Positions 5,133 to 63,650 of a DNA stretch of 64,000 bases are shown piece by piece. Source of the stretch: Membranipora membranacea. Lineage: Eukaryota; Bryozoa; Gymnolaemata; Cheilostomatida; Membraniporidae. Both the position numbers and the translations under genes were made by a program. The DNA is taken from positions 12,013,493 to 12,077,492 of the forward strand of contig OU612071.1 in NCBI GenBank assembly GCA_914767715.1, in the 5' to 3' direction. Each line of letters starts with the position of its first letter. The stretch's first letter is position 1. Below the pieces are notes generated by a model that was given only the letters and a program-made list of their open reading frames with translations, was not told the DNA's origin and ran no database searches.

Positions 5133-5148
5133 TGGTTAGACCAAGTAA

Positions 5149-22800: not shown

Positions 22801-25800
22801 CCAAATTTATTTCCCTACCATACCCCGGTAAGTCTTAATGGTGCTGAATCTTAATAATGACAATCTCAGTATACAGTTAATTTTTCTCAAGATATAGGCA
22901 ATTTCAATATTATTTTGAGACTAGCTTCTATCTACAATGGGAATATGAGGCCATTCTCGCAATCTAATATTCGATTTCTCTGGATTGCAGCTATGTCACT
23001 CGAGAGATTTGAAACAAAGATCAGCAACCAAGCGACCGAAATTGCCAATTTCAGAACGGATTTGCAAGCAGCCGACGATCGATACAAAGGTACATTCAAA
23101 TGCCAAAACTATTTCCCTGTTACACCCCGATAAGTCTTAATGGTGCTGATTCTAATTAATGAAAGTCTCAGTATACAGTAAATTTTTCTCAAGATATAGG
23201 CAATTTCAATACTATTTGGAGACTAGCTTCTATCTACAATGGGAATATGAGGCCATTCTCGCAATCTAATCTCATTTTCTTTGGATTGCAGCTATGTCAC
23301 TCGAGATATTGGAACTAAAGATCAGTAACCAAGCAACTGACATTGCAAACCTCAGAACAGATTCACAAGCAGCCGATACTTCAATGATCGTAGACATCAC
23401 ATCGCTAAATGAATCTATAAATCATGAAATCTCACTTCTACATACCATGTTGGAAGGAACGGATAACGCCTCTGACAGCATGTTGTTCCACAAAGCTAAG
23501 TCACATCCTTCCACACCCTCGATAGAGATGATTGACCTACTGCACACCAAGGTTGAGAATATGAGCACTGCAATAGTTGAGGTTCAAGACTTCCTCCATA
23601 GCGCTACAGCACTCATGACATCAATCAATGAATTGGGTTCAAGGGACAGAAATCTATTGTATACTCAACTAAACAACTTAGAAATTCATCTAAATGGTAC
23701 AAGCCGTGATCAGCAGAATATGCGAGAAAGCATCAACTCCTTGAACACACAGTTAGATAACCTGGAAAAATCCACACCTACGGCAATGGATGAAAGCTTG
23801 CAAAACTTCGCGAAAATCTTCAACAAGACGCTTGAAAACATTGAATCAAAGATGAACCAACACATTGCGATGATGGAGTCAATAAATGACACGGCCTCGG
23901 CTCAGAGGAACTCCTTGTACATACAGTTGAACGAGATGATGGCCTCAATGAACGATTCGGCCTCGGCTGAGAGGAACTCCTTGTATGTGCAGTTAGAAAA
24001 CCTGGATAAGTCCACTACAATGGCAATGGCTGAAACCTCCCAACACATCTCGAACATCAACATGACAATTAATCAACAGACAGCAATGATGGAGTTGATG
24101 AATGACTCAGCGATGGTTGAGAGGAAAACCTTGTACACACATTTAGACAACCTGAATGAGTCAACAACCACGGCGATGGATGAAGCCGCTCGAAACATCT
24201 CGAACATCAGCTTGAAAATTAATGAACAGACATCAATGTTTGAGTTGATGAATGATTCGGCCTCCGCTGAGAGAAACTCCTTGTACATACAGTTAGAAAA
24301 CCTGAATGATTCAACAACAACGGCGATGGATCAGTTGTATACTCAACGAAACACCTTCTTAACACATCTTAATGAGCTCACAACAATAGCGATTGATGAA
24401 AACATGGACTTCTCAAGTGCCTCTGCTTTGGTACAACCCTACTTTTGTAAGTTAATTGAGTCATTCATATGCAGTTTGATCCCACGTTTCGAATCGGAGG
24501 CATCTAATGATTTGTCCGATTCTGATATGAATGAATGCGATTTTCCTGATAAATTTTAGGTTATGTATTATGAAACGCAGCCATAGGTCATCCTTGTTGG
24601 GACAATTCTGGCAGGAAGAGCGTCCATGAGCAAGGGCTCCTGTGTACCAAAATTAGTCATTGGGTCATTATCAAGTTGTCATTATGCATTGCTGGCCCGT
24701 AGTACTCATGTTAAACACTAGGTTCCGCTCCAAAAGTGTGTCATTGGTTACCATATTTTGTCACGATATCAAATCAATCATCCTCTAGCAGTCCATTGTG
24801 TCGAAACTATAATGGAAAGGGATGTCGATCATTGTGCTCGAAATTTACTGAGAACTTTGCGTGTTTTTCTGCTCATGCAATGCAATCAAGACTTTATTGA
24901 TAATGTCCAATAACCATGACCTTTTGCTAAAAGACCTTTCATAGAGCCATGATTCTTGGCTAGATGCTAAAGTGGATTATGATCTCATCACTGAGGTTGG
25001 GCACCTTAACTCTATTGTGCTATTCTCCGGCACTTTCGCATAATTATGTGGCCTTTATGGCGATCCCTCATGTCGATCCTCAATGTTGATGCTGTAAAGT
25101 TTGTGATAATCTTCAATGCATTTTTACAACATTAAAACGTCGACGATCAGTACTACATAGGGTGAATAATGATTATAATTATGTTCAAAGGTGGTCAATG
25201 TACCGATGAGTCAAGCCCATGTACACTTGGAGAGTTTGACGAACTCCTCTGTCAGCGGGGTTTCCTGCAGTCGCATAAAAGATATGGGGAAAGAAGTTAT
25301 TCAAATTTACTCCGTTATTCTACAATACTAAAGAATCCAGGATTCAAAGGATTGAGCATAATATTCCATGCGTATGAGGTTCGTTGAGTAATAATAATAA
25401 TAATAAATAATAATAAAATATGCCGAAAAAGATGTGATACAAAATATCAGCCTCAAAGTAAGTCTTCAAGTCTATGCCCCACACTGATAGCTAATGCGTC
25501 TGGTTACGGGACAAATACTCAATAGTGTGTTCAAGCCTACATGCGGTTGAAGCCCTTTTCACCAGATGTTTCTAATAAAATTAGCCATATAATTATACTT
25601 ATTGCTCCAACAATTATTAGCTCAAATCCCATACGTGTACAATCTGCATCTTTTTTTCTTCTTTCGGCCGTTTGATATAATTTCAGAAAATCAGGGACAT
25701 TCTGATCAAAGATTTTCTACTGTTGATCAATAAATTCACAATGGTTTCACACTATTAGAATATATTAGAAGCACTAGTAGTGCAGATCATACAGAGAAAA

Positions 25801-26339
25801 CCGATCCCTTGCCGAGCACTCATTAATTTGTTTTACTATAATAACCCCAAGATGGAAATCTACTCGAATGCGCAATAGTGGCATAATTTGTCGCCCTAGA
25901 TACAAATGTGAGAGCAGTCGCTAATCAAGAGAGAGTATGAGTGTCATATTAATTTATTTTGCATTGCATATTGCTTCATATTATTACGCATTGTCGCTTA
26001 TAGGTAGAAGAAGAATATGACTGGCTGGAAATCGGGATTGCTGATAAACGCTACCAGAGATGCGACAACTCTGTTGATCCTTTGATTTACAACTTTAACG
26101 TTTCAGAGGCTGACGATATCTACGTAACTTTTATGTCTGATTCTTCTGGAATTAGACCTGGTTTTATGATTGAGTTCAACTTCGAATTAATCCCTAATAC
26201 GGAATCAGCATACAAAGCAACCATAGATCATATTAAGTGTATAGTTTATGAATCGCCTCAAGCATTCCCTGATCCCTGGTCAACGGACACTTTCACATCT
26301 TCAACTCCTGAAACCATTGCCGACCCTGACGGCAAGTAA
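19896..26339 (+). CDS. Type II membrane protein with coiled-coil stalk and CUB-like domain (gene 1)
   Basis: Exons: 19896-20094, 21184-21204, 21289-21363, 21724-21804, 22991-23089, 23292-24446, 25191-25378, 26004-26339. They total 2154 nt, 717 aa, all joins in frame. Residues 1-14 are a basic tail (no signal peptide) and 15-39 a hydrophobic helix ending in GACCGLVL, so the C-terminus should be extracellular. Residues 40-543 form a heptad-like stalk with many N-x-S/T sequons and repeats marked by SLYxQL and MNDSAS. Residues 544-717 form a CUB-like domain: cysteines in CGQCTDE and SPCTL, FHAYEV|EEEYDWLEIG across the intron, and a GFMIEFNFEL strand. Exons 2-6 are phase 1-1. The start is at 19896 because an ATG at 19885 opens only a six-codon upstream frame. 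Weak points are exon 2 (21 nt, donor GTTTAAG) and the donor GTTCGT after 25378. It is probably a cell-surface receptor or adhesion protein; the ligand is unknown. Confidence 0.8.
20602..20790. repeat. Head-to-head SINE pair in gene 1 intron 1
   Basis: A minus-strand SINE tail (ACCCAAAGGTGCTGGGAGCTT…AAGCTCCCCCAGTGGGA) is followed by a plus-strand head (GGTGAGATGGCGCTATTGGTTA…GTTGTGGCTCCATT). The paralogue has a similar pair at a different place in its intron 1, so these are independent insertions after gene duplication. Confidence 0.65.
21889..22239. mobile_element. TACCCTATAGGAGTTTA MITE carrying a tRNA-like gene
   Basis: Terminal inverted repeats TACCCTATAGGAGTTTA and its near complement, with TA at the outer edges (mariner-like TA target is possible). 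Inside are a CGCGGCATTTAGGATTCG motif and a tRNA-like unit at about 22044-22126 with GTGTAGTGGTCCAAG and a B box GGTTCGAATCC, followed by TTTTTTTT. The 7-base stem GTCCAAG…CTTGGAC pairs around the anticodon and T arms, but a proper D arm is lost. The same composite is inverted at 39774-40139. Confidence 0.78.
22349..22452. mobile_element. GGGGGTCTTTCAATTAG MITE, internally deleted (gene 1 intron 4)
   Basis: Left end GGGGGTCTTTCAATTAGAA, then ATCACTATTACCCTGCTCAAAATTATCGCT and an abrupt right end (GGCTGTCTTTAATTGTAATACTC). It sits at the same place relative to the spacer exon as the MITE in each gene 2 repeat unit, so it predates the gene duplication. Confidence 0.75.
24450..25190 (+). pseudogene. 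Fossil open frame in the penultimate intron of gene 1
   Basis: The intron contains a frame-broken coding-like stretch shared with gene 2 (46495-46860): an MQCNQD block, NNHDLLLKDLS, and after a shift DYDLITEVGHLNSIVLF. Both paralogues keep the words but break the frame in different places, so it predates their split. The source protein is not recognised. Confidence 0.4.
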
Positions 26340-35801: not shown

Positions 35802-38800
35802 ATGGCTATTATAAGACGCGGTCAAGATGTCGTCTCTATCAAAAACAAAACTAAGATGCTGCTTGCTGGCTCGACGATGCTGCTTATCACCGCGTTCATC
35901 GTCGTAGGAGCCTGCTATGCGCTTGTGCTGTCCCAACTGGAAGAGCTAAAAGATAAGATGGCCGACATGGAGGGAACAAAACGCCAGAATGCTGACTTTG
36001 AAGACTTAGGTAATATAATACCACAATCACAGTCTAGAGATCAACAAATACCCTAGTTGTAGAGGCTTACACCAGAGAGTGCTTGGGGCTTGAACAATCA
36101 ACCTTGAAAGCTCCGAAAGAATTCGAACCTACAACTCTAGCGGCAATGATCGCCTGTCAGTGGACAGCAAGCGCGCTAACCGATTGCGCAATCTCCCCAT
36201 CCCCAGAAGGTGAGATGGCGCAGTCGGTTAGGACGCCTATGGGAGTTAATATTAGGAAGACTTGATTGAAGACATGTTTGGTTAACTTCATGCAAGCCTG
36301 CACTAAGTGTCAGCTAGGCGGTAGCTTAGATTAATAATTTACCACTCTAGGGTAGAATTCTTCTGATCTTACGACTGCTGTATATTATATTACATTGAAT
36401 GATATTTATTTCAAATTCAAAGACTAGCTTTGAGGCGGCTTTTTCGTAAGACATCATATTCTCCATATTCTATTCCATCATGTGAGCAATTTCCAGCTTT
36501 AGAATCTTAATATTGAGGGAGTTATGGTCTCTCAAACTTTCAAGGAGATATCTGTCGATCGGCATTTAGAATCCCCACACTAAAAATAGATTCACAAACA
36601 AAACATAATGGGTGCAAGTGGGTGTTGTACCCAGGTCCTTGGGATCGGCAGGCAACGCCACTACCATCGGACCACGACGTCCGGCTATATGAGGCCATTG
36701 ATAATAAAGCGCAGTGGTAGCGGCGTTGCCTGCTGGTCAATAAGACCTTGGTTTGTGACCCACATGCACCCGTATTATTATGATATAAATGAGACATAGT
36801 GTGAGGATTTTCAATGCCGATCGAGAATAAGATGTGATACAAAATAGCAGCCACAAAGTAAGTCATTAAGCGATCACCGATGCTAAAATATGCTGAAAAG
36901 TGATTGAAGTTTGTAATAATGATGATACATACATGATTATCATTATTAGTACTTGGTACAGTAGAAACAGCGCTGAAATGGAACTCTCAACTTTGTTAAA
37001 ATCCAGATTAAAATTTTATTCAATTGTGTGTTAAGTATAATATGCATAGTATTTAGGACTTTTTCCAGGTTTAACTTGGTCCAAGTGAAATTTGATTCCA
37101 TCCAAGACTAGGCCATCACAGGATTCCACCCATAAAATTCTGCATTTATATCTCAGTTCTTGAATTCAATCATAATTGGGTAGTTTGACCAAATTATAAT
37201 TTATACTGAAATCCATAGCATAGTGGTTAAGTTCGTGGACTGCTGTGCACTAGGTTCTCGGTTCGAGTCCAGGTGCGAGCAGTATTTTGCCTATCACTCT
37301 AGTAGTTGAAACCCCTAAGGATGTAGACCTCTGACCCGACTCGACCCTTACATGACCCGACCACAGAAACCCAAGACCCGACCCATCGACTCGACCCTGA
37401 ATACAACACTTATCAGCATAGATTGAAAGGAAGCAAATAAGCTGCAGTGATGTAGCAGAAAAAGTTGTATAAGTTTTCTAGACTCTAGATGGATAATGTT
37501 TGATTCAGTGTTCCTGCATTTTGAAGGTTTTCAATTAGAATGGGCATTGCCTTTTTATTAAAAAGTACCACTATCACCCGCTGAAAATTATCGCTCATTT
37601 GGTCTTTCGATATGTTCCTGAACTCTGAAGGTTATACTTCCTTCCAATGACTAATCTATTTGTGAGCTAGACCCTATCGATAATATAACGATTTTGGCAG
37701 TTTTTAACTGAAATTCTCCCCTTGATTGATTTATTGATTTATTGATTGGTTGATTATTTGATTGATTGATCGATTTTATTCCTATTGCTAAATTGATATA
37801 TGTTGTGAAATACTGGGCCCATGATATTAAAAATGATTGGACGGTCCCATACTATTGGGGAGCTTCCTGCAAATAGAATTGTGTCTTCTCATACATCCAG
37901 TTCATTATTAGCTTCTCAAACATTTTTAAATGTTGACATCTCTGTGTATCACATCATGTTAACATACATGCTTTGAACTATAATAAATATTATGTTATTG
38001 TTGTCAAGTTCATGAATGTTAGAATCCCATTACTCAGACAATTTGTGGTTCTCAATCAAACACGTTTGCATCGCTACCCCCCCCCCCCCACCCTGGACTT
38101 AGATTAAGTGAGAACAATTGTTGGGGACAAATAGTCAGCAACTCATTAATAACAGCTCAATATTTACCAAGGACTGGAAGTTTGTCAAGTTGTTGAAATG
38201 ACTATCATTATCATATTTATTGAAGGTGGTACCACCAATGAGCCACACGGAGGCACTTTTGATGTGAATGCTCGTATTGACACCCTGTCCCGAGCCCAAA
38301 AGGAAAACCATCAGATGCTACGACGGTTCGGTGAGAGCTAGTTAACTCTGCACATATCTCAGTTTAAAATTCATTATTCATCATTATTGTGTAGTGTCCG
38401 TAATAACAGGGTAGTTTCAACACCAACGAATTGAATCATGTATGGCTCAAGTATGTAATTGCCTTTTTACATTGAAAAGAGCTAGAAGGCAAATGTCTCG
38501 TATATCACAGGTTATGCAAAAATTGATTAAAAGCACACTGAAGTCCAGTAGAAAAACAATTAGGAATATTTTCAGGCACTACAGGCACAGTCCCATGTTT
38601 TATCTTTCCTTACCTTCTTTCTCAGAGGGACAGAAAATTTGGTTAGATACCAAGAGTTGTAGATATTGGAGCCGTATTTGAGCCACACTAGCCCTGTCAC
38701 GGGCCCACTTATTTTGTTTAAGGCTTGAGGAGCTTAATGTTGGTTAATTAAAAAATCTTATTTTGTTTGTAGAGCGGAGTTTGGCCGCAATTACAAAGAG

Positions 38801-41800
38801 GCAAAAGAAGAATGACGATGAAATTCAAAATCTCAGTGAGTGTTTTCTATATCATTCCACTCTCAGGACATCATCAGTTCCTGAATTCTATAGCAACAAG
38901 TTCAATACTGTTGTAATGTCACGCCAAAAGTCTACATGAATCATTGAATAATGCATTATTAGCAATCAAGCAGCAGTGTTGTAATGTAGTGTTATGTAGC
39001 AGAAAAACTGCTATTATTGTAGGCTATAGGCCAGGTAGCCATTGAAAGCCCTGCTCCGCGGTCCAGGTTTAATTACAATCTGAATGAGTGTCAAAATTTG
39101 AATGTCCAATTTTATTGCTATCACTAACTCAAGTAATTGTGAAATATGCCCAAATGACGGTGAGCTTATGGAAGGATAGGATGGGCTTTATTTGTCATGC
39201 GATTATACTCTCATGAAAATGAGGCAACAAAAATTATCTCAAAAAGTAAGACAGAACTATTTGCTAGCAATTAGCATATTGGAAAAAGAAACTTCTATTC
39301 AACTTCTCAGCCCTACTGCGAAATATATATATTATGTTTTATATGTTATGTTTATCTTATATTTTTGAAGGATACCCATCCAAGCAACCAGTAGAAGACA
39401 CGACCTTTCAAGGACCTCAAGAAGTGAATCATCAAATGTCCCAGCAACTCGGTGAGAGCTCAAAAACTCTTAAAATTCTGCACATATCTCAGTTCTAGAA
39501 ACAAATCATGATTGAGTAGTTTAGCAGGGGTATCCTTTGATTAGAAAGAGCGATGCGCTACTAAAGCAAGTTAACACAATCACATCGCTCAAAATTATCA
39601 CTCTTTTGGTTTTTCAATTAGACAAAATCGCTCCAAAATCGCTCACATATAAAGTATACAGTTCAATCAATGAGTGAGCGATTTCTTAGCGAGACCCCAA
39701 GCAGGTATTGATCACTCACTGAGTGAGCATTGCAATTTTGGCAGTTTCCAATTGAAGGGCCCCCTGATTAGCATACCCTATAGGAGTTTAATTTAGCTAG
39801 AGTTTAATTTCGCTACTATGGTGAGTGAGTTTAATTTAAGATACACTAAATTTCGCTAGTAGGCTTACTAGGGGAAATTTTAAAAAATGTTCAAGCTGGG
39901 ATTCAAACCCAGGGCATAACCTTCCATCTGATTGCAAGGCAGACACTTAGAACACTACACCACACTGCCTTGCATGCATATGGTAAGGGGTATTCCTGTA
40001 TAATTGTACATTGTTTATGAAACTGAGTGGTGTTTATTGCTTAGGAAGTAATTTCCGCTATCATATAATTTCGTTACTTAGGCAAAAATGCGAAAAGCGA
40101 ATCCTAAATGCCGCGAAAAACTAAACTCCTATAGGGTAGATGGAAAGGAAGAAAAAACTTCATTGGTGTAGCAGAAAAAAATTGTTAAAGTTTTCTAGAG
40201 TCTGGATAAATAACATTTGATTCAGGGTTCCTGGATTCTGGGGGGTCTTTCAATAAGAATGAGCATTGCCTTTTTCATAAAAAAGTATCACTATCACCGG
40301 CTGAAAATTATCACTCACTTGGTCTTTCAATTAGATAAAATCGCTCCCAAATCTTTAACTCATAGTGTATATAGTACCATCAGTGAGTGAGCGATTTCTG
40401 AGCGACACCCCTAGCAGGTATCACTCGCTAATGATAGGATAGGATAGGATTTATTTCTTCCTCCATATATCAGAAAGTATGTGGCCTTGAGTGAAAAAAA
40501 TGATGTAAAAATGGATTACGATTAGAAATAAATTGATAAGAAAAAATAGTCTGGAGCTCTACATGAAAGTGAGGCAAATTATCTCAAAAAGTAAGACAGA
40601 ACTATTTGCTAGCAATTAGCATCTTGGAAAAAGAAACTTCTCTTCAACTTCTCAGTTGAAATATATATATAATATTTTATATGTTATTTTTATTTTTATA
40701 TTTTTGAAGCATACCCAACCAAGCAACCAGTGGGAGACACCACCATTCAAGGACATCAAGGAGTGAATCGTCAAAAGTCCCAGCAACTCGGTGAGAGCTC
40801 ATAAACTCATGAAATTCTGCACATATCTCAGTTCTAGAAACCAATCATAATTGGGTAGTTTAGCAGGGGGTCCTTTAGTTTGAATGAGCAATGCGCTACT
40901 AAAGCAAGTAATCAGTATCACATCGCTCAAAATTTTACTCTCTTTGTCTTTCAATTAGACAAAATCGACCCCAAATCTGTCACTCATAATGTATATAGCA
41001 CCATCAGTGAGCGAGCGATTTCTGAGCGTGACCCCTAGCAGGTATCACTCGCTAATGATAGGATAGGATAGGATTTATTTGTTCCTCCATATATCAGAAA
41101 GTATGATGCCTTGAGTCAAAACAATTTTAAAAAGTGAATTACGATTAGAAATAAATTGAAAAGAAAAAATAGACTGGAGCTCTACATGAAAGTGAGGCAA
41201 AAAAATTATGTCAAAAAGTAAGACAGAACTATTTGCTAGCAATTAGCATAATGGAAAAAGAAACTTCCCTTCAACTTCTCAGTTGAAATATATATAATAT
41301 ATAATATATTTTATATGTTTTATTTGATTTCATATTTTTGAAGAATACCCAACCAAACAACCAGTAGAAAACACGACTTTTCAAGGGCCTCAAGGAGTGT
41401 ATCATCAAATGTCCCAGCAACTCGGTGAGAGCTCTCAAACTCATAAACTTCTACACATATCTCAGTTCTAGAAACCAATCATGATTGGGTAGTTAAACAT
41501 AGATTAGCATAGATCGAAAGGAAGCAAAAAGGCTTCAATGGTGTAGCAGAAAAATTATAAAAGTTTTCTAGAGTGTAGATAATATTTGGTTCGGTGTTCC
41601 TGCATTCTGGGGGGTCTTCCAATAAGAATGAGCATTGCATTTATAGAGAAAAGTATCACTATCACCCGGTGAAAATTATCACTCACTTGGTCTTTCAATT
41701 AGACAAAATCGCTCCCGAATCGCTAACTCATAATGTATATAGTACCATCAGTGAGCGAGCGAATTCTGAGCGTGACCCCTAGCAGGTATCACTCGCTAAT

Positions 41801-44800
41801 GATAGGATAGGATAGGCTATATTTGTCCCTCCATATATCAGAAAGTATGATGCCTTGAGTGAAAACAATTCTAAAAATTGAATTACGATTAGAAATAAAT
41901 TGAAAAGAAAAATTAGACTGGAGCTCTACATGAAAGTGAGGCAAAAAAAATTATCCCAAAAAGTAAGACAGAACTATTTGCTAGCAATTAGCATATTCGA
42001 AAAAGAAACTTCTCTTCAACCTCTCAGTCCCACTGCGAAACATGTATATTATGTTTTATATGTTATATTCATCTTATATTTTTGAAGAATACCCAACAAA
42101 GCAGCCAGTGGGAGACACGACCGTTCAAGGACCTCAAGGAGTGAATCATCAAATGTCCCAGCAACTCGGTGAGATCTCACAAACTAATAAAGTTCTGCAT
42201 GTATCTCAGTTCTAGAAACCAATCATGATTGGGTAGTTAAACATAGATTAGCATAGGTCGATAGGAAGCAGAAAAACTTCAATGGTGTATCAGAAAATAT
42301 GGTATCAGTTTTCTAGAGTCTAGATTAATACCGTTTGATCCAGTTCTCCTGCTTTCTGGGAGATCTTTCAATAACAATGAGCGTCGCAATTTTCAATAAA
42401 AACTATAACTATCACCCGCTGAAAATTATCACTAACTTGGTCTTTCAATTACACAAAATCGCTCCCAAATCGCTCACTCATAATGTATATAGTACCATCA
42501 GTGAGTGAGCGATTTCTGAGCGAGACCCCTAGCAGGTATTGCTCACTTAATGAGCGGATGATCAGATTGCAATTTTGGCAGTTTCTAATTAAAAGACCCC
42601 CTGATCAGCATTAGTGTTGTATTGAGCCAGCAAAAATGAAAATGAGCCGAGCCACTTAAATTTCCCTAAATTCGGGTACGAGTCGGGTCAAGTCGAAAAG
42701 AGCGCATGAATTGGATTTACATTACGACTTCATAAGTCGATGTCCTACTCCTACACTGTCTTCAGATATCACAATTTAAAAGAATGATGGATATTCATCC
42801 ACTAATCACTAGTGCAATTAGCTAATAGTACATGTCAAGTTTGATTCAGTTTGTAATATATCATCTAGACATAATGAACTATGTTGAGACCAAGTTCCAT
42901 CAAATTCTGTCAAGTATTTATCGAATTATAGATGTCTGAAGAAAGCTTTATGTAGTGTTGTAAGCCGTTCATAATAATCACAGCAAAAGCATGACTTATA
43001 GCTATATGTTTTATCATCGCATAGTCTCTATTTCCAAACTTATATACTGAAATCCATAGCATAGTGGTTATGTTCGTGGACTGCTGTGCACTAGGTCCTC
43101 GGTTCGAGTTCAGGTGCGAGTAGTATTTTGCCCATCACTCTAGTAGTTGAGACCCCTAAGGATGTAGACCTCTGACCCGACTTGACCCTAACATGACTCG
43201 TCCACAGAAACTCAAAACCCGACCCGTTGACTCGACCCTGAATACAACACTAATTAATCAGCATAGATTAAAAGGAAGCAAAAAAGCTTCAATGGTGGAG
43301 CAGAAAAATTGTAAAAGTTGTCTAGAGTCTAGATAAATAACGTTTGGTTCAGTGTTCCTGCATTCTGGGGATCTTTCAATTAGAATGAGCATTGCCTTTT
43401 TGATATAAAGTATCACATCACCCGCTGAAAATTATCACTCACTTGGTCTTTCAATTAGACAAATGCGAACTCTAAAAGTTATAGTTCCTTCCAATGGCTA
43501 AGCTATTTGTGAGCTATACCCTAGCTATTAGATAGCGACATTCAATTCCATATCCTCACCATTAGCTATCTTCTGCCAAACAATGGGTATGCAAAAAATA
43601 ACCAGTCCCTAGTAGTATTCTAAGAAAGCCTAAATCAGCGATACTGAAGGGATTTCATTGCTGTTTGCAACCATACTGACTCTCGTGATCTGACTGGCAT
43701 GTAGATCACTGATAAACTAGGCTATCATTACCATAAAGCAGGTGTCTTAAGGCTAAATATGCATCATGCGTGACTTGAATTTGCGCATGTGCAAGAAAAA
43801 AGAGTTTAATTTGGGTTCTGATTGCAACTTTGGAAAGGGGAAATGAGATATTCCCGGCATAAACTGTCAATCAAAATCAGCTAATTATGACAAGAGAGGA
43901 TAACTATTAATAACAAATCCGCACGCTTTGGGGAGTATGTCACCAGAGCAGGTAGCCAATCAGATGGCTTCGGAATTCCGAGACTCAATTTTGCAGAGAT
44001 CAGCTCATGCCCAGAGCTGAGCATGCGCAGAATGGTTTGCAACTTTGTAATCAAGTCAATTTCCCGGGCTAAATTATTTTTGCTAGTAGCTAGACAGCAA
44101 ATCAAAACAACATCTGACAAGTCGCTGTGCTGAGTGTTCTTCTTTATGGTGTTATGATACTATTTCCGTTCCACGAGAAAAATTTAATTCAGTAGATAGC
44201 GATTTTGGCTGTTTTTAACTGGAATCCCCCTTGGTCAGTACCATTCTATTGGCGAACTTCCTAGGATTGTGTACTATCGTAGGAGGCAACTCGAAATTGA
44301 GCAATTTGGATTGATCCAACTTTCACGGGGACAAGAAGTATTAAAATGAAGGCTTTTTAGTATCATTCTGGAGTTCACAGTCCAATTTAGAAAACTGCCA
44401 TAAAGTTTATTTACAACATTATGCCCATGTCACCTCAAAGGTGAGATTTGAAGGTTCTAAAAATAAAGTTTTTGGTACAAAAAAATGATTTTTTTCTGCC
44501 CTTATAACACTCTCCTTGTCTTGGCAATCAATCCCAAGACATGACAAATAAAAAAGGTCAACTGAATGAGAAGTTGCCCTCCCTCAACAATCTAAGGAAA
44601 ACCTATTGGTATGGAAAACTTAGAAGTCCTGTTCACAGCCATTGATAGGCTTTTATGTTATTCACATCATCTTTCCTTCAATCTGATATCCTGTCAGCAT
44701 GCCAGTATTGAAAGAAAAAAGTCTGCTCATATCGTCACTTTCGGTTACAAATGAAGCGCCCATGTTTTTTCCCCTAAAATATGTTACATTATAAGAGAGA

Positions 44801-47800
44801 AAAAAGGTACTATTTTAATAACAGTTTATACAAAATAGTACCTTTTTAGTACCTTCCAATCTTAAGTTCGGCCAACTTTGAGTGAAAATCAGCTGAAACT
44901 GTGCCACTTGCTGTTAATAAACCTTATAGCAGTTTTCTAAATTAGACTGAGAAGGCTAGAATGATACCAAAAACCTGATTCCTTCACAGTCACTTTAAGG
45001 GAAGTTATTTTAATCACCAATATTATAGGGGTTGTCTTGCTTTTATGATTCATGGTGTAAGTAATAGAGAACAGAGAGAAATATGATCACTATTGAACTA
45101 ACTTTTTTCTGGATTGCAGCAATGTCGCTTGACAGTTTGGGAACCAAGATCACTGAACTCACAACAGAATTTGGGCGCCAAGCAACTGACATTGCCAATC
45201 TCAGAACAGATTTAAGAGCAGCCAACACTTCAATGAGCGAAGACTTCGCATTGCTAAATGAATCTCTTAATTTAGAGATCTCAGTACTACGCAGCATGTT
45301 GGACGAAACGGATAACGCCTCTGATAGCATGTTGCTCCTCAAATCTAAGGTACATCCTATCACACCCTCGATGGAGATGATTGACCTACTACATACCAAG
45401 GTTGAGAATATGAGCACTGCAATAGTTAAGGTTCAAGACCTCCTCCATAATGCTACAGCACTCATGACATCAATCAATGAATTGGGTTCAACGGACAGAA
45501 ATCTATTGTATACACAACTAAACAACTTAGAAAATCATCTAAATGGTACAAGCCGCGATCAGCAGAATATGCGAGAAAACATCAATTCCTTGTACACACA
45601 GTTAGATAACCTGGAAAAATCCACACCTACGGCAATGGATGAAAGCTTGCAAAACTTCTCCAATAGCTTCAACCATACGCTTGAAAACATTGAATCAAAG
45701 ATGAACCAACACATTGAGATGATGGCCTCAATGAATGACACGGCCTCGGCTGAGAGAAACTCCTTGTACATACAGTTAAACAACCTGGACAAGTCAACAA
45801 CGATGACAATGGCTGAAAACTTGCAAAGCATCTCAACTATCCTGAACCAATCCCTAGAAAACATTGAATCAAACATGAACCAACATATCGAGATGATGGC
45901 ATCAATGAACGATTCCGCCTCGGCTGAAAGGAGCTCCTTGTACACTGAGTTAGAAAACCTGGATAAGTCCACTACAATGGCAATGGCTGATAACTTGCAA
46001 AACATCTCAACTATCTTTAACCATACATTAGAAAAAATTGAATCAAACATGAACCAACACATTGAGATGATGGCCTCAATGAACGATTCGGCCTCGGCTG
46101 AGAGGTACTCCTTGTACGCACAGTTAGAAAACCTGGATAAGTCAACAACCACGGCAATCAATGAAACCTCCCAACACATCTCGAACATCAACATGACAAT
46201 TAATGAGCAGGCAGCAATGATAGAGTTGATGAAAGTGTCAAATACTATGGCGAAAGCCTACTCCTGTGAGTCAATTGAGTCATTCGTATACACTTATGTT
46301 ATGTATTATAAAGAGGAGCCATAGGGCATATGTAGGCGCAAGTATTTCATTCTTGTTAGGACAATTTTAGCCGGAAGAGCATCCAGGACCATGTGCTCCT
46401 GTTTACCAAATTTAGTCATTGGGTCATTATCAAGTTTTTATTATGCATTGCTGGCCCCAAGTACTCATGTTAAACACTAGCTTACGCTCCAAAAGTGTGT
46501 CATTTTGTCACGATATCAAATCAATCATCTTCTAGCAGTCCATTGGGACAAAACTATAATGGTAAGAAAGAGGGATGTCAATCATTGTGCTCAAAATATA
46601 CTGAGAACGTTTTTCTGCTCATGCAATGCAATCAAGACTTGATTGATAGATACCGTCCAATATTTGGTGCCAACAACCATGACCTTTTGCTAAAAGACCT
46701 TTCAATGAGCGATGATTCTTGGAATAGATGCTAAAGTGGGTTATGATCTCATCACTAAGGTCGGGCACCTTAACTCTATTGTGCTATTCTCAGGCACTAT
46801 CCCATATGTGGTCTTTATGGCGATCCCTCATGTTGATGCTCAATGTTGATGCTGTGAAATTTGCGATAATCTTCAATGCCTTTCTACAACACTAAATCAT
46901 CAACTTATCAATACTACATAGGGTGAATCATCATTTAATAATAATTATAATTTTTTTTTAAGGTGGTAAATGTACCAATGAGTCAAGCGCTTGCACACTT
47001 GGAGACTATTCAGAACTCACCTGCCAGAGGGGCTTTTTTAAGTCTCATGATGGCTTTGATGATCGAAGTACATACACCTCCTTTGGTCAAATTAGAACAG
47101 ATCTGAAGAATCCGGGATTTAAAGGACTCAAGATTACACTTCACGAGTTTGATGTTAGTTGAGTATTTATATACATGAAGACTTTCATGGTAGATTGATT
47201 CTTGAACGGTTCATCATTTTGGCAGGAAAATGACCCACGCTGCTGCTCTGTGTATGATATATTAGTTGATATTCTGGTAGAAACTGATTGTCTCGTTACA
47301 ATTCATACCATTCTAAGTCCATTTCACCAGATGCACTTGTTAATAGTTATCCACAAAATTGAGTCTTAGCTCAGTTTAATATAATTCCAGATAAATAAGG
47401 GACATTCTGATCAATAAGAAAGTTTCTACTGTTGATAAATACACAAATTGTTCCCAATTATTTACGCATTCAATATTTTGACTGTTAAAATCTAATATGT
47501 GCTACGTTTCCATATGTTAGAATATAGGAGAATTTGTAGTGCAGTTCATACGGTGAAAAAAGCATCCCTGCCAAAGCAGACATTAATTTGTTGTGCTATA
47601 ACCCCACAATGATAATTTGCTCGAATGGGCAATAGTGGCATGAAATCCACCTTGATTCAATTGTGAGAGAATGAGTGTCATATTGATTTAGTCGAGTTGA
47701 TTTTATTTTTTTGTATGCATTTTGTATTATATTGTTAAACATTCTCTTTTATAGTCGGCAAGCCCTACATCTAGCGACGACGATTGCGATTCAGATTTTC

Positions 47801-48042
47801 TCTATATAGTCGTATCTAGAAAGAGCTTTGAGCTCTGTGGCACTGCAATTAGTGATTTAGTATTATACTTTGATGTATCAGCGGTAGATGAGGGATTCAT
47901 AGAGATAACTTTTTGGGTTGAAACTAACAACCTACATTACGGTTTTATGATTGAGTTCGATTTCCAATTAATGCCTTTTCCTGAATCAGCTTACAAATCA
48001 TCCGAGAATGATGTGGTATATTTTTATGAGGATACCGGATGA
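35802..48042 (+). CDS. Type II membrane protein with amplified stalk exons and CUB-like domain (gene 2)
   Basis: Tandem paralogue of gene 1. Exons: 35802-36009, 38226-38330, 38773-38835, 39371-39451, 40710-40790, 41344-41424, 42088-42168, 45120-46265, 46963-47153, 47755-48042. They total 2325 nt, 774 aa, all joins in frame. Residues 1-18 are a basic tail, 19-43 the membrane helix (GACYALVL end), then coiled coil SQLEELKDKMADMEG. Residues 126-233 are four copies of a 27-residue spacer (YPTKQPV…QQLG). Residues 234-615 form a coiled-coil stalk with three perfect-length 58-residue repeats (SLYxQL, NLDKSTT, MNQHIEMMASMND) rich in N-x-S/T sequons. Residues 616-774 form a CUB-like domain (cysteines, ITLHEFD across the intron, YGFMIEFDFQL strand). 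All internal exons through exon 8 are phase 1-1. It lacks gene 1's 99-nt exon. The donor after 47153 is GTTAGT; reading through would stop three codons on. Likely plasma-membrane, extracellular C-terminus; function unknown. Confidence 0.83.
36063..36245. repeat. Head-to-head SINE pair in gene 2 intron 1
   Basis: A minus-strand copy (reverse-complement B box in AATTCGAACCTACAACTC; A box complement CGATTGCGCAATC) ends at 36205, followed by a plus-strand truncated head GGTGAGATGGCGCAGTCGGTTA. Gene 1 has the flanking sequence uninterrupted, so insertion followed the gene duplication. Confidence 0.75.
36556..36823. repeat. Foldback element with two opposed tRNA-like heads
   Basis: The outer ends CGATCGGCATT…CCCCACAC and GTGTGAGGATTTTCAATGCCGATCG are inverted. 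The left half read on the minus strand has GTCGTGGTCCGATGGTAGTGG and a B-box-like GGGTACAACACCC. The right half on the plus strand has GCGCAGTGGTAGCGGCG and GGTTTGTGACCC. A related single unit with the same GATGTGATACAAAATA flank lies at 25425-25560. Confidence 0.65.
37205..37410 (+). repeat. tRNA-like SINE plus ACCCGAC-rich tail
   Basis: Head ATCCATAGCATAGTGGTTAAG, B box GGTTCGAGTCC, then CACTCTAGTAGTTGA and several GACCCGAC repeats ending in CTGAATACAACACT. A near copy is at 43036-43255, where it forms part of a larger inverted-repeat element. Confidence 0.7.
37525..37725. mobile_element. GGGGGTCTTTCAATTAG MITE, diverged
   Basis: TTTTCAATTAGAATGGGCATTGC left part, CACTATCACCCGCTGAAAATT, a rearranged middle (GGTTATACTTCCTTCCAATG) and the right part CGATTTTGGCAGTTTTTAACTG. 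It shares the rearranged middle with the 43366 copy and gives the empty site for the insertion found there. Confidence 0.7.
39774..40139. mobile_element. TACCCTATAGGAGTTTA MITE carrying a tRNA-like gene (inverted copy)
   Basis: Same terminal repeats as 21889-22239. The tRNA-like unit is on the minus strand (reverse-complement B box in GGGATTCAAACCCAGG) and the ATCCTAAATGCCGCG block is at the right end, so the element is inverted relative to the gene 1 copy. An extra TTTAATTTAGCTAGAG step is present near its left end. Confidence 0.78.
42356..42601. mobile_element. GGGGGTCTTTCAATTAG MITE after the last spacer exon
   Basis: Complete-length member with left end GGGAGATCTTTCAATAACAA and right end TTCTAATTAAAAGACCCCC, the CTCACTCATAATGTATATAG core and the GTGAGTGAGCGATTTCTGAG motif. 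Confidence 0.85.
42604..43258. mobile_element. Inverted-repeat element TTAGTGTTGTATT…AATACAACACTAA with SINE inside
   Basis: The left end ATTAGTGTTGTATTGAG faces the right end CTGAATACAACACTAAT. Inside are GAGTCGGGTCAAGTCG / CCCGACTTGACCC inverted motifs, the dispersed repeat 42838-43010 and the tRNA-like SINE 43036-43130. The terminal repeats are about 16 bp; no target duplication was resolved. Confidence 0.55.
43366..44246. mobile_element. MITE split by a 653-bp insertion
   Basis: MITE left part 43366-43539 (GGGGATCTTTCAATTAGAAT…) and right part 44193-44246 (GCGATTTTGGCTGTTTTTAACT…). The insertion 43540-44192 is flanked by TAGATAGCGA on both sides (43530-43539 and 44193-44202), and the related MITE at 37525-37725 shows the unsplit order. 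The insert has no recognisable gene; the minus-strand frame at 43881-44120 has no supporting motif. Confidence 0.75.
44320..45000. mobile_element. Element with ~75-bp imperfect terminal inverted repeats
   Basis: The left arm around 44350-44425 (TTTTTAGTATCATTCT, CAATTTAGAAAACTGCCATA, AAGTTTATTTACAAC) pairs with the complement of 44905-44980. The ~480-bp interior holds GTTTATACAAAATAGTACCT and related GTACT palindromes. There is no coding frame. It lies just upstream of the large stalk exon of gene 2 and is absent at that place in gene 1. Confidence 0.7.
46495..46860 (+). pseudogene. Fossil open frame in the penultimate intron of gene 2
   Basis: Counterpart of the intron relic in gene 1. Here the first frame is open through MQCNQDLIDRYRPIFGANN and NHDLLLKDLSMSDDSW. 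A +1 shift then continues as DAKVGYDLITKVGHLNS and FMAIPHVDAQC. The source protein is unknown. Confidence 0.42.
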
Positions 48043-48086
48043 GGGTCCATGAGTATTATGATGATGATGATTTTCAATTTTTTTAG

Positions 48087-48206
48087 TTCACTTTCAAATT
48101 AATGCCTTTAACTGAATCAGCTTACAATGCAACCACAGATGGTGTGGAATATTATTTGGATTATGCAGTTTATTTTTTTGAGTATTATGAAACTTATTAT
48201 TCATAA
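48087..48206 (+). pseudogene. Extra copy of the terminal CUB exon end
   Basis: After an acceptor-like TTTTTTTAG, a 39-codon open frame (FTFKLMPLTESAYNATTDG … stop at 48204-48206) duplicates the end of exon 10 just upstream. TESAYNATTDG is closer to gene 1's TESAYKATIDH than to gene 2's own PESAYKSSEND. It could be an alternative last exon or the stump of a third paralogue. Confidence 0.5.
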
Positions 48207-48279
48207 ACTTTCTTTCCATGTGAAAAACCAATATGTCTAATTTAATTTTAACTGTCTTATTTTAATTTATAAGAAATTG

Positions 48280-54850: not shown

Positions 54851-56009
54851 CAGCTAGTGGATGACCAGCTAGTGATCTCAGTTCCCAATGGCTGACTATT
54901 TGATGAATATATGTTTATGTACACTCTGAATAAACTATTTGGAAGCAATAGGACAAATATTGATGAATGAATGCCAAGACTGAGCAATCCAGAACAAGAT
55001 TCGCCTATACGCTGCTAAAACTAAACGCCTAAACATTGCTCTGATGAAAATATAATGGTCCAACCCCTCTCTTCATTTCCCCATTGCTTTACATGCAAAT
55101 TATATTGACTTCCCACCTCCAAAAGCCTGCTTCAGGTTCTTTCAATTCTTTAACCAGACCACTCAAATGGCCTGCTTCTGCTCTGCCATACTTGAGAGTG
55201 TCGGATGGAAACTTATTGTAAGATTTTCTTCGGCGCACCCACAAACACAGCAAGTGCATTTTTACAGGTTTACCAGCTAATTTTGTCTAAACTGACTCGT
55301 CTGCATAAAGCGCCCCAAATTGATTTTGCTAAATTTGTTTAAAACCTCTATCACTGATATTTCATTTGCAGATCCACCAGGGAACATTTTCATGCTTCAA
55401 TATCACTGACTGCAGTACTATCAACTTGCCTAGGTCCTGATTTGACATCAGTCATACTAATCATTTTAATTTTGAGGAGGGGTGCAAAAAGTTGACCTAA
55501 TTAAATTACAGGTGTATTACCTAATGGTGAGCATGGCGATTGCCAATGACATCAAAATGCTGCCCTAGAAAGCTAGAGCATGTATCCTACAAGGAACCGG
55601 GATTTTATGACAATCGGGGCATTATAGACATATCCAGACATGTTGTAGACACAGGCACTCGACGAGTATTCGCTTACTTTTTCAGCCATCTGTTTTCAGT
55701 AGTTTCGGAAATATGACCCTCTGATAATTGCACTCTCGGTAACAACATGCCCTCATCCAGATACCTAGTTGGAAAAAAGTAATACTGGGGTCAACAGCCT
55801 ACTCTAGTCACACTACCATGTATGTTTCAATATCTATTTTGTCTTTACCGCATAAAGAGTTGCCTGCTCTTGATACCCGAGCAAGCAACTCCCGTTTACA
55901 GGTTACTGTGGGTTAACTGAGCCATTAGAATACCAAGAATACAGCAAACTAAGTAAGAGTGCATGTCACCTGTCACTCTTAACGGGTGTAGTCACAAACA
56001 GAAGCTTTC

Positions 56010-56462
56010 ATTGTTGATTGTTCCAGCCCCCAGCATTCTAGGGTGTATACCTCTCCTGTGTACTTGTCTACTGACTGACTCATGGAAAGACATGTGGCAG
56101 CATGGAAAGACATGCTGACAAGCTGGAAAGACAGCTAAACCAACTGCAAGAGGTCCCAGCAATGGGCCATGTAAGGCGAATAACCCTAACACGCACGCTG
56201 TGTTCCATAGGGTGGCAATGGTGGATTGGAATGTGCTGTGGGATGAGAGAACACAACTCCGAGTAGTGAAAAGCGGGTTATCTAATTAGCGCCATCGACC
56301 CATTCTTTTTTGGGGATCGTGAGATGGCGCAATCGGTTAGCGCGCTTGCTATTCACTGCCAGGCGATAAGTGCCGCAGGAGTTGTGGGTTCGAGTCCCAC
56401 TGGGGGAGCTTTCATTGTTGATTGTTCCAGCCCCCAGCACCCTAGGGTGTTTACCTCTCCAG
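56010..56462 (+). repeat. tRNA-derived SINE with an extra tail copy (right duplicate)
   Basis: Counterpart of the 1097-1560 element, with the same A and B boxes (head starts near 56312) and the same headless tail upstream. It was already present before the segment duplicated. Confidence 0.75.
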
Positions 56463-56571
56463 GTAATAAATTATATATATATACAAATACATATAAATGA
56501 AGACTGACATCTGCTGGTTTTCTGTTTGCAGACATCTGGTGGCGTGAACAGCTCGAGGAGAGAATTCTGGT

Positions 56572-57708
56572 ATGAGAGTTCTTCGGCCCCAGGCAACCTG
56601 CAAAGATAAAAGTAAACAGCAATCAGATAGCGGGAGAGAGGCTAAGCGTGTGGGGAACTTTGTGGTTAACACGGACATGATGCTGTATGCGCTGCAGGAC
56701 TTCCAAAAGGGACACAGGACATTGGAAACTTCCAGGATTGTCTCATCGGTTCTACAAAGCAGCGCAGGAGAGCAGGAGGGGCAGAAGAGGGTAGCTACCA
56801 ACAAACAGTTCGGACATGCTGTGCAGGATAGCTGCCTTGGCATGCACGGGGCATGTCAGCCGTTTGCATCACTAGACATGTCACCGCTGGCTCCATCAAA
56901 CTGCCAAAAGCTGGCCAAGCTGGTGGACAATGAGATGACAGACATAAATAACAGAGACCTGAACAGACTGGCAGCGGAAAAATTTAATGATAACAAACTA
57001 TGATGCCTGAGCGGGGGAGGGAGGGGAGATTGCCATAATCCGTTGACAGCCGCTACAATTCAGTAAGGTTTGGCAATAAAGAGAAGATTGGCCTATGTGC
57101 GGTAACAACTGCCATCAGACAACGATGGGCAGGGTGCAAAGCCCTATCAGGCTTTGATGAGAACGAGGCCAGAAAAGTGGACTGTTACAGCTCAGTCCGA
57201 CCCCTCTCACCCGGGCAACTCACAGGTTAGAGCTATAAAGAAAGTGAATTTCAGGAAAAAGACATTCAGTTGCGCCAGGGTAAAGACAATTCACTCACTT
57301 AAGAAGTTGGTGGCAAAAGATGTCAAGTGCCGTTCGAGTATCGTTGCACAGCAGTTGTCCAAGCTGGGTTTATCAATAATCCAAGTAAATCATCTGGTCA
57401 GCACGGCCGTGGAGTGCTTCGACGGCAATCATCAGATGTGTTCCAGACTGGTTGGCAGCAGCTGCTGCGGGACAGAAGAGGACAACTGGATGCTCAGTAG
57501 TTCACTGTTCCGGTCTGGGGTGTATAAACTGCAACGAAGAAGAGAAAGAAAAAAACTGTTAGATGTTTTCAATATACGCCTTCATACCAACGCCCTTCAA
57601 GCGACAAAGCTTGGAATTAGTACGCAGCGCAACCAGGCATTTAACAGGGCATTGATTAAAAATATGCTAAAGAATGTCCTATTTAGTAGCCAAGAGCAAA
57701 TACCATGA
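56572..57708 (+). pseudogene. Decayed Mutator-like transposase (right duplicate)
   Basis: Better preserved than the left copy: the first 143 codons (56572-57003) stay in one frame before a stop. The frame is then lost through 57004-57156 and reopens at the ATG of 57157 to the stop at 57708. The C-terminal frame is identical to the left copy apart from one Met/Val difference. The catalytic middle of the protein is missing or shifted, so it is a fossil. Such an element could have supplied the transposase for nearby palindromic MITEs with 9-bp target duplications (see 19746-19845); that link is inference. Confidence 0.58.
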
Positions 57709-59708
57709 AGAACAAAGACTAAGTGTTCTGAGCTTTTAAGCATTTAGTTGACAAAATTACATTCGAAATCGGACCTTACTCACGGGCCATTAGTGTTTTC
57801 CATCTTACGTCAACACGTCTGACAGCTGGAAAGATCAGATGCAGCTGATTAGCTAAAATTCTGAGCAAAACCTTGAACTCTGAAAAGTTGACGCACCATT
57901 TTTCATACAAATGTTAAGACCAGAAACATGCTACATAGCATGTGTTGTTATGGCACACACAATATCTGATGGCACGGTATACTGATCAAATTTTATACTT
58001 CATTAGTACATGTTGAGTAAAACTCACCGGTTTTACCCAGTTGTAGTGGTAATATTTAGAAAGAAGGTCTGTTATTCATACATTACATTTATGGGGAGAA
58101 AACTCCTCTTCTGACCTATGCGCAACAGAGAAAAAGTGAATAGCGCAGTGACGCTGCGTCACTGAATTAGAGAAGACACTGAGCCTGTATCAAATAGTCA
58201 ATAGTTTCCAGTCTATAGAGTATATATATGTTTATGATAGAGACAGTCAGTACCAATCTTTATGTATTTATTTGCTTATTCTCATTCTTTTTAGCAAATT
58301 TATGCACCAAATAAAAGGTTTTTGTTCTTGTAAATTAAACAAACATGTAAATTTTTCTAAATGAAAGACTGAAAGAACTGGACTTTGAATGAACTACCCC
58401 AAATACTTTTGCTGAAAATGCATCGCTTATTCCAATTAAAACACCCCCTGGGTCATTCTAATTGAAAACATCCAGAGCGATTTGCGCTCAGAGGGAGGAG
58501 GAAGACAGTCTATAATACCCTCTGTTCTAGCCCCTTACACAGAACCACTTAGAAGTAGCGGTCGAATCTAATGTTATGAAGAAGGGCAACATTTGTGTCC
58601 AGTGACAACTCCAAATAGAAATACAATGTTGTAAGGAAATGCAGGCTAGTCATAATTATCTAAACCACATTGGTGTTGATTGAAACAGACCCTAGACAAG
58701 CAAGGGCCCCTTTGACTAACATGCCTTTACTTTGCCAACGTCCAGTATCAACAACTCAATACACCAAACGTTCGGTGTTTTGGGGCTGGTTGATACTGGA
58801 CATCAGCAAACTACAGGCTTGCATGTCCACGGGGCCAATGGCACCAACCACTGATTCCCCTTTTAATTATCTCCTCATATGACCTGTATTGAACAAGCTT
58901 GTCAAGACAGGCTAGCTTTCGCATCGTATCGCAGCATGTATTTTAAGACTTGATGTAGTGACAATAGGCACTACATTCAAAACTATAGAGTAGCTTTAAT
59001 TGTGGGATATACTTTTTCATCGAGTCCTCCTAGCCCTATGCTCTACTAATCATTGCCTACCTACCTTAACCTATTTGTATTGTAAATTATCTCTCAATAG
59101 TCACAGTGAATGTGATAGTGTTTGACTGTAGAAATTAGTGACTATGTAGTTTGACCAAGAGGTAATGTGTAGTGTAGCCATAAGAACAATGAGAAGGAAT
59201 TACGATATTGACATCCATGATTATATATTTTTTGTAACCACACACTATACCAGAGGTAACACAATTAAGCCTCAATTAAACTCTAACACTTTTGAAGACA
59301 CCTTTTACAACCGCATGCGATCACATGTTAAATGCTAACACTTAGATTAAATGATTCGATAGCCCTGATCACAATGACTCATGCTCAACCGTAACAATGT
59401 ACTAGGATATGCCAATAACTTTTTGGTTTGTGTGCATTATGATTAAATGGGCATGCAACAACAACACTTTATTTTTGCGTTTCAGAGGCAAATATTTTAT
59501 GCTTATTATTTATAGATTTTCTATGCCTGAAAGTTGATTAACTGTGTCTATAAATGTTTTTTTTTCCATGAGTCTACTGCAGACGCTGACTTCAGATTCA
59601 ACACTGATCAACGCTAGACCTGAGCAATCAAAACTACACTTCCGTCTTATGCTTTTCCCCAAAGGCGGGTCGGAGTAACCTGAAAAGAGAGAGAGAGTTC
59701 ATTTGACT

Positions 59709-59951
59709 GGGGGGTCTTTCAATTAGAAACAGCGAAAATTGCAATCTGCTCGCTCACCCAGTGAGTGAGCGACACCTGCTACCGCTACTAGGCTCTCGCT
59801 TTCAGCTAACTCACTCATGATGGAACTATATACACTTTGAGTGCGCGATTTGGGAGCGATTGTGTCCATCCATTTGAAAGAGCAAGTGAGTGATAAATTT
59901 TAGCGATGTGATAGTGATAACTTGCATCTCTCATTTTAATTGAAGCCCCCC
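59709..59951. mobile_element. GGGGGTCTTTCAATTAG MITE (copy 1, right duplicate)
   Basis: Same element as at 4890-5132, with the same ends and the same internal GCTCACTCA motifs. It is followed directly by the point where the left copy has the extra AT-rich retroposon fragment. Confidence 0.85.
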
Positions 59952-60670
59952 TGGTTAGACCAAGTAATTGACTCCCTGCTTAGCAATTGTATATTATATA
60001 AAGATGATACATAAATAAGAGGATAATGAGTGAATGGATAATACTAAACCTGCAGAGTTGAAGGTATAATAGATAAGTTCAATACTGGTATTCAGACTGA
60101 AGCTCCTGTAAGTGAGAAATACTATTTCTTCAGATTGTCTGCTTTTCTGTTACCTGATAACAATGGATTCTATCTTCTTGTTTCATGTGAGAAGTGTAGA
60201 CAACTCTGTTGAGTCACAATGAGGTCCAGGAAAATAAAATTACCAAAACACCATTGGAGATCAATGAGCAAAAGAGGGAGCTTTGTTTCAAGCAAGGCCC
60301 TTCAAGAATCTCACTCCTATTTTATTTAAAGAGTTCTCCTAGTATTATATAAGGCCAATGAAATGTAAATAGGAATAGCTCACCAAACCCTCAACTGGGA
60401 TTCTTATACACAGGTATTTGAGAAAAGGGCTGGAGTTTAGCCATATCTTCTTTTTTTTTGGAAAAAGAAACTGTTGTTCTAACATTTTATGATTATGATT
60501 ATATGTTATTTATATGAGCAATAGTACCTATATAGAAATTGTGGAGTGTTCCTATCACAGGGTTTGTTTGTTGTCATGTTGTTGTCTGTTGTGCATGTAC
60601 CGTGTCCATGTATCTTTGAGTTGTCTTCTCTGTTCATACTACTGAGAAGTGACCACCATTCTACCAACCC

Positions 60671-60926
60671 TGGGGGTCTTTCAATTAGAGACAGGCAAAA
60701 TCGCGATCTTGTCGCTCACTCACTGAGTGAGCGATACCTGCTAGGGGTCTTGCTTTCAAATCGCTCAGTCACTTGATGGAACTATATACATTCTGAGTGA
60801 GCGATTTGGGAGCGATTTTCTCTAATTGAAACACCAAGTGAGTGTTAATTTTGAGCGGTGTGATAGTGATGTGATAGTGATAACTTGCTTTAGTAAAGGA
60901 TCACTCTTTCTGATTGAAAGACCCCC
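60671..60926. mobile_element. GGGGGTCTTTCAATTAG MITE (copy 2, right duplicate)
   Basis: Counterpart of 10259-10514 with both termini intact. Confidence 0.88.
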
Positions 60927-61076
60927 CTGACCCAATTTATGACAGAGACTGACTTGACCTGTCCTGCGGCTGTAGCCTTAAAAAGAATACACATTAGGCA
61001 CATTTCTCTACTGACTTCGCGGTGAGTGGACTGCATTGTTATAAGCTAGCCATCCTGCTTAACCCAACCATCTTTT

Positions 61077-63586: not shown

Positions 63587-63650
63587 ACACCACACCAGCT
63601 AGTTTTGACTTTGAGACACCAAACACATCGAGCAGTCGGCTTCTTTAAAG
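63587..63650 (+). pseudogene. ESS2-like exon in the right duplicate
   Basis: Copy of the 13174-13237 exon (TTPASFDFETP motif) in the right duplicate, again running into an in-frame TAA. Whether the downstream ESS2-like exons are duplicated too lies beyond the window end. Confidence 0.55.

Follow-up and report, generated by a model that had tools for sequence, protein, structure and literature searches.

Tandem copies of an 81-nt exon in one of two neighbouring paralogous genes of Membranipora membranacea, and their predicted effect on stalk length

Two neighbouring genes of the bryozoan Membranipora membranacea raise the question of how one of them came to carry four copies of an exon that the other holds once, and whether these copies lengthen the encoded protein. 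The window, which is the whole stretch of 64,000 nt analysed here, has the content of animal-like genomic DNA, with introns and short dispersed repeats. Its + strand carries the paralogous gene 1 (19896-26339) and gene 2 (35802-48042). We consider it fairly probable that these paralogs were set apart by the insertion of a short element (denoted X) and by exon gain in gene 2, that all four exon copies are spliced into the mature transcript, and that stalk sequence has been exchanged between the two genes.

Both genes were rebuilt with exon borders predicted from the DNA sequence, giving the following models.

35802-36009, + strand: gene 2 exon 1, encoding a basic N-terminus of short length and a predicted transmembrane helix (type II anchor)
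38226-38330, + strand: exon 2 of gene 2 (105 nt, phase 1-1), of which gene 1 retains no more than a decayed trace near 21184
38773-38835, + strand: gene 2 exon 3, 63 nt, phase 1-1
39371-39451, + strand: 81-nt exon copy 1 of gene 2, phase 1-1, putative founder position, retaining upstream sequence common with gene 1
40710-40790, + strand: 81-nt exon copy 2, phase 1-1
41344-41424, + strand: 81-nt exon copy 3, phase 1-1
42088-42168, + strand: 81-nt exon copy 4, phase 1-1
45120-46265, + strand: gene 2 big stalk exon (exon 8), with helical periodicity and 58-aa (174-nt) tandem repeats
46963-47153, + strand: gene 2 head exon A, CUB-like only via homology to the gene 1 head
47755-48042, + strand: gene 2 head exon B and stop, CUB-like only via homology to the gene 1 head
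21724-21804, + strand: sole 81-nt exon of gene 1
22991-23089, + strand: additional 99-nt exon of gene 1, copied in tandem from the 5' end of its big stalk exon
23292-24446, + strand: gene 1 big stalk exon
19896-20094, 21289-21363, 25191-25378 and 26004-26339, + strand: further exons of gene 1

Spliced in silico, the 10 exons of gene 2 make 2325 nt and translate into 774 aa with no internal stop, while gene 1 yields 710 aa. Closure of the gene 2 frame at 774 aa requires that exon 9 end at 47153; a donor at 47157 breaks the frame. The four 81-nt exons and exons 2, 3 and 8 (the last of 1146 nt) are all of phase 1-1, and the head exons A and B are of phases 1-0 and 0-end. The rebuild thus agrees with the preliminary description of gene 2 in coordinates, exon length, phases and protein length, and in its statement that the internal stalk exons are symmetric.

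That description had also counted four 81-nt exons in gene 2 against one in gene 1, and this is what we found. All five, in both genes, have phase 1 on entry and exit, an AG acceptor and a GT donor. Within gene 2 the copies start 1339, 634 and 744 nt apart, leaving introns of 1258, 553 and 663 nt, and all six copy pairs are 0.840-0.901 identical (8-13 differences per 81 nt); against the gene 1 exon the identity is 0.827-0.864. Since the best ungapped identity for this same exon in 10 Markov-shuffled windows was 0.469-0.506, the array is not a product of chance. The similarity extends into the introns, with identities among copies of 0.853-0.920 over 75 nt downstream and 0.849-0.932 over 160 nt upstream. 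The array shows sequence features by which tandem exon duplication is recognised: adjacent homologous exons on the same strand with homologous intron flanks, and splice sites and frame retained in every copy. In-frame exon amplification, as first proposed, is supported by the copies, their phases and the closed frame; the term exon shuffling that accompanied the proposal does not apply, the process being intragenic tandem exon duplication.

Could the array be an artefact, a single exon expanded to four during assembly? The two ends of the window, 50-55 kb apart, are 95.7-99.9% identical, and uncollapsed haplotypes may therefore exist in this assembly. The left end recurs at 55147-64000, which suggests that further copies of genes 1 and 2, possibly allelic, may lie about 50 kb onward. 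However, the array copies differ from each other by 10-16% in the exon and by 7-15% in the flanks, and their upstream flanks carry individual indels. Exon copies that are 84-90% identical within flanks that are 85-93% identical are separate duplicates rather than an assembly stutter. The preliminary description had itself raised an assembly error as a danger to its reading; given the divergence between exon copies, we regard such an error as very improbable.

The DNA upstream of the exons bears on the direction of change. Two elements are needed to describe it.

39171-39370, + strand: X, short form, inserted upstream of copy 1 and supplying its acceptor region; gene 1 lacks X
42356-42600, + strand: repeat M, with an internal hairpin and MITE-like, closing the array on its downstream side

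The upstream sequence TGACGGTGAGCT(A/T)ATG is common to gene 1 and copy 1 of gene 2; from its start to the exon there are 32 nt in gene 1 and 216 nt at copy 1. In gene 1 the exon begins 16 nt past this sequence, whereas at copy 1 X, of about 185-190 nt, intervenes. All four copies carry X directly upstream, in a longer form of about 270 nt at copies 2-4. Before copies 2, 3 and 4, repeat M is cut at an identical point and fused to X, a junction that is not present at copy 1. Dispersed copies of M also occur elsewhere in the window, apart from the gene 2 array, including on the opposite strand, and exon copies 1 and 4 are followed downstream by longer M copies that continue beyond the junction point. 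Within the window, the array is the only place where X or the M-X junction was found.

The presence of X upstream of all four copies, its absence from gene 1, and the junction common to copies 2-4 indicate that gene 2 gained copies. The opposite history, in which the ancestor had four copies and gene 1 lost three, draws some support from the loss of exon 2 in gene 1 (gene 2 retains this exon). Yet gene 1 has no X at its acceptor, and X and the M-X junction are confined to the array in the window, so we judge such a loss improbable. As for the gain in gene 2, a repeat element would have inserted just upstream of its 81-nt linker exon, supplying the acceptor region; the exon with its flanks may then have been duplicated in tandem, up to four copies, by recombination via the intronic repeats. 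X, matched only inside the array within the window, is a candidate mobile element, and the insertion of X would have preceded the repeat-mediated duplications. A tree of the units has weak branch support (48 and 75), and the downstream contexts, compared by eye, pair copies 1 and 2 and copies 3 and 4, suggesting a history other than simple serial duplication. Exon 2 was considered as a further copy of the 81-nt exon but not taken as one, its nucleotide match being clear only in the downstream intron flank.

What would each duplication add to the protein? Since each copy is 81 nt long and of phase 1-1, 27 residues are gained per duplication without a frameshift. The four 27-aa units contain 11 prolines in 107 aa and lack helical periodicity (74 of 500 shuffles were equally strong), implying that the amplified part is a linker and not the helical stalk. 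Hydrophobic residues in the big stalk exon, by comparison, recur with a period of 3.62; in each gene, none of 500 shuffles had a 3.6-residue period of equal strength, and this exon resembles helical or coiled-coil rods in its sequence; the stalk part of exons 1-3 is intermediate (28 of 500 shuffles). We therefore infer that the 81-nt exon encodes a Pro/Gln-rich linker, probably flexible, and that each copy would insert 27 residues of it between the membrane-proximal part and the helical stalk. The best Pfam matches of the stalk (Apolipoprotein, DUF349 and Snapin_Pallidin) were below cut-off and were taken as coiled-coil noise.

By the borders used here, the stalk is 573 aa long in gene 2 and 496 aa in gene 1, in keeping with the earlier suggestion that stalk length is an evolving property. 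The stalk has also changed in ways that the preliminary description omitted. The big stalk exon contains tandem repeats (unit 174 nt in gene 2, 150 nt in gene 1); the additional 99-nt exon of gene 1 matches the 5' end of the big exon at 88% over 292 nt; exon 2 was lost from gene 1; and the tracts described below were exchanged, as it seems, between the genes. An evolving stalk length fits these changes together better than it fits the exon array alone.

Whether all four copies are used is a question about splicing. If the exons were alternatively spliced, in any subset or as mutually exclusive choices, one gene could make a range of stalk-length isoforms; all 16 exon subsets preserve the frame by phase, and tandem duplicates are often tied to mutually exclusive choice (PMC9013439). 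The splice sites, however, give little reason for choosing among the copies. Counted against the donor consensus MAG|GTRAGT, a crude measure, the four donors match at 6 of 9 positions each (5-7 at the other sites of both genes), and the acceptors have 11-12 pyrimidines in 15 (8-11 elsewhere in both genes), so that the copies are roughly equal to each other and no worse than other sites. Steric exclusion of neighbouring exons needs short introns, and the three introns of the array exceed the length that this rule allows. As to competing intron structures, the predicted hairpins are those of the dispersed repeat M; when five stretches of M were folded, each alone, the hairpin was weak at 40955-41055 (z -0.99), and the other four gave z values of -2.46 to -6.30. 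Moreover, the copies encode a near-identical peptide. We thus hold alternative splicing to be unlikely; most likely all four copies are spliced in to give the predicted protein of 774 aa.

A more serious alternative is that the array is a neutral by-product, in which the duplications drifted to fixation and the linker has no effect, or in which some copies are skipped pseudo-exons. Divergence between the copies is equal in exons and introns, so that selection for a longer stalk would be hypothetical, and the neck repeat of human CLEC4M has been deemed neutral in one report (PMC3261175). On the other side stand four open frames with intact splice sites, and exons that are free of indels against several in the 160-nt upstream flanks, even if the 75-nt downstream flanks are free of them as well. 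The dN/dS ratio is 0.14-0.36 in five of the six copy pairs and 0.95 in the sixth. In 20000 runs that started from a star-like consensus, we simulated the substitutions seen in the copies under neutrality. On single measures neutrality stands: in 29% of runs no copy acquired a stop, and the observed changes, 8 of them synonymous and 11 non-synonymous, compare with neutral expectations of 4.8 and 14.3 (p 0.08 and 0.10). The joint outcome has a p of 0.013, for a combination chosen post hoc. Strong purifying selection on the four copies was rejected as a reading, since the exons are conserved no better than the introns and the simulation result is weak. Taken together, the neutral reading is a real possibility although not the one we favour, and the array is likely to be functional.

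Stalk sequence also seems to have passed between the two genes, by gene conversion or a similar process. Two tracts stand out in their alignment.

23328-23985, + strand: tract 1 of gene 1, apparently homogenised, 90% identical to gene 2 45156-45768
24636-25233, + strand: tract 2 of gene 1, apparently homogenised, mostly intron, 90% identical to gene 2 46395-47005

In an alignment that is 71% identical as a whole, these tracts score 307 and 295, and no score above 66 arose in 2000 permutations. In 60-bp bins, identity is 0.77-0.87 where the stalk exon starts, rises to 0.93-0.97 midway through it (23521-23946), drops to 0.47-0.87 across its repeats, and returns to 0.88-0.93 in the intron that follows (24681-25123). 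Over the two head exons, together with their shared intron (25244-26248), it is 0.38-0.68 in 13 of the 16 bins and 0.75-0.83 in the other three. The region between the tracts holds internal repeats and aligns poorly; within it, 23933-24102 matches 46064-46233 at 91%. Synonymous sites show the same pattern, with a divergence between the genes of 0.30 in the stalk exon and of 1.02, 0.70, 1.12 and 1.45 in exons 1, 3, A and B (49.9 differences in 202.3 sites for the big stalk exon against 85.5 in 146.0 for the other four together; Fisher p 1.4e-10 on rounded counts).

Because the conserved sequence includes an intron, protein constraint cannot explain it, while conversion between the genes or an unequal exchange can. 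On this reading, conversion or unequal crossing-over would have made the helical stalk exon and the intron after it alike in both genes as the anchor and head diverged further. The 81-nt exon also has a dS to gene 1 (0.12-0.36) below that of exons 1, 3, A and B; it may therefore have been exchanged as well, which blurs the order of events.

Both genes probably encode type II membrane glycoproteins, with a short tail on the cytoplasmic side, a single transmembrane helix, a stalk of ~500-570 aa and, at the C-terminus, a CUB-like head that contains cysteines. On sequence grounds, each product has a basic N-terminal stretch, one hydrophobic helix, and a large C-terminal ectodomain with sequons. 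Past the membrane anchor, each protein contains cysteines only on the C-terminal side of the stalk, six in number. The designation CUB receptor, given earlier to gene 2, goes further than this evidence: hydropathy and charge point to a type II membrane protein, receptor is a guess, and CUB is weak. The gene 1 head matches Pfam CUB (PF00431) at 13.2 bits, below the gathering threshold of 21.4 (E 0.12, profile positions 30-110), and the gene 2 head has no Pfam match. A sequence search of PDB with the gene 2 head or a two-head profile gave no match up to E 10. The predicted fold of gene 1 exon B alone, with that of gene 2 as second row, has five strands at a pLDDT of 48 and is unreliable. A CUB-like head is thus weakly supported.

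Between the genes the head exons are 0.670 and 0.560 identical and the intron between them 0.578. Their dN/dS values of 0.30 and 0.39 (bootstrap upper limits 0.64 and 0.82) suggest selection that is purifying on average. Positive selection on the whole head was considered, since its exons seemed to have diverged more than introns, and rejected in view of these ratios and of an intron that is similarly divergent; the odd part of the alignment is the conserved stalk tract. Protein searches found no match at E <=1 for the whole of gene 2 among the best 7995 candidates scored, none at E <=1 for its head among 60 candidates, and none at E <=0.1 for a neighbouring ORF among 97 candidates. Among the titles and abstract openings listed by searches of open-licence PMC papers, none described a type II membrane protein that combines a CUB head and a coiled-coil stalk.

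Tandem exon duplication is a common and familiar route to a change in protein length, of which gene 2 is another instance. CLEC4M (DC-SIGNR/L-SIGN) is a surface protein of type II topology in which neck length varies through in-frame repeats, as linker length differs between the two genes here. Its neck VNTR has a 69-bp unit in 4-9 repeats (PMC3261175) that lie within exon 4 (PMC11945572). The repeats of CLEC4M are thus inside one exon, whereas the unit in gene 2 is an exon with introns, known from one sequence. According to a 2002 survey cited in PMC9013439, some 10% of animal genes contain exons duplicated in tandem; gene 2 resembles these cases in its adjacent homologous exons within one gene, here with copied intron flanks, but its four near-alike copies are probably additive and not a mutually exclusive set. 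Drosophila hydra, with recurrent first-exon duplications and the transposon DINE-1 beside most copies (PMC9013439), likewise combines recurrent exon duplication with a flanking repeat element, although alternative first exons are duplicated there and internal coding exons in gene 2. In B7-H3, an immune surface protein is lengthened by tandem exon duplication in some lineages (PMC3172298), but by whole Ig domains (2Ig/4Ig) and with an alternative short isoform known.

The gene pair is a readable case of such lengthening, since introns and repeats allow whole in-frame length steps and the single-exon sister adjoins. If the copy number of the array varies in the population, nature would offer one linker in a series of lengths; if not, the case is an ordinary example of a common process. 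A bolder and doubtful proposal is that stalk and head evolve under separate rules, with the exon array as a copy-number locus for linker length, a stalk homogenised by conversion, a diverging head and anchor, and variation in copy number among individuals that may set reach. If this were true, the two genes would represent a surface protein family so far described nowhere.

The two ends of the window (1-13587 and 55147-64000) share five mutually repeated blocks of 95.7-99.86% identity, the two copies lying 50-55 kb from each other. Either this DNA underwent segmental duplication not long ago, or the assembly has retained both haplotypes next to each other. Comparison of the two ends revealed a segment of about 4.2 kb (5839-10063) that is carried by the left copy alone. 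This segment has inverted termini (TAGGCCAGCAGCAGC and GCTGCTGCTGGCCTA) and is flanked on both sides by TTC. It resembles a DNA transposon that occupies just one of the two window-end copies. A fragment of a Mutator-like transposase was found at 56548-57000 (Pfam PF20700, E 3.3e-6), scoring 26.7 bits where the family cut-off is 26.5. Rfam further detected a tRNA-like sequence (32.5 bits) at 1416-1493 and at 56324-56401, and ARAGORN called no tRNA at either position; these are perhaps copies of a tRNA-derived SINE.

Both paralogous genes harbour a repeat of about 360 bp downstream of the 81-nt linker exon (in gene 2, downstream of copy 1, 39371-39451), in opposite orientations:

39774-40138, ~360-bp repeat, gene 2
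21888-22239, ~360-bp repeat, gene 1, inverted

The ends of this repeat are inverted (TACCCTATAGGAGTTTA). By eye, it also appears to contain a tRNA-like core.

A stray copy of the downstream flank of the 81-nt exon lies in gene 2 intron 1 (37128-37189), and no copy of the exon itself was found next to it. This orphan flank is possibly the trace of a lost exon copy.

The tail of the last exon of gene 2 is incompletely duplicated at 48082-48210 (79% identity over 75 nt). The partial copy is preceded by a T-run and an AG, and its reading frame stays open for 39 codons in phase 0, which is also the phase at the end of exon 9. It may be an alternative last exon of gene 2, or a relic.
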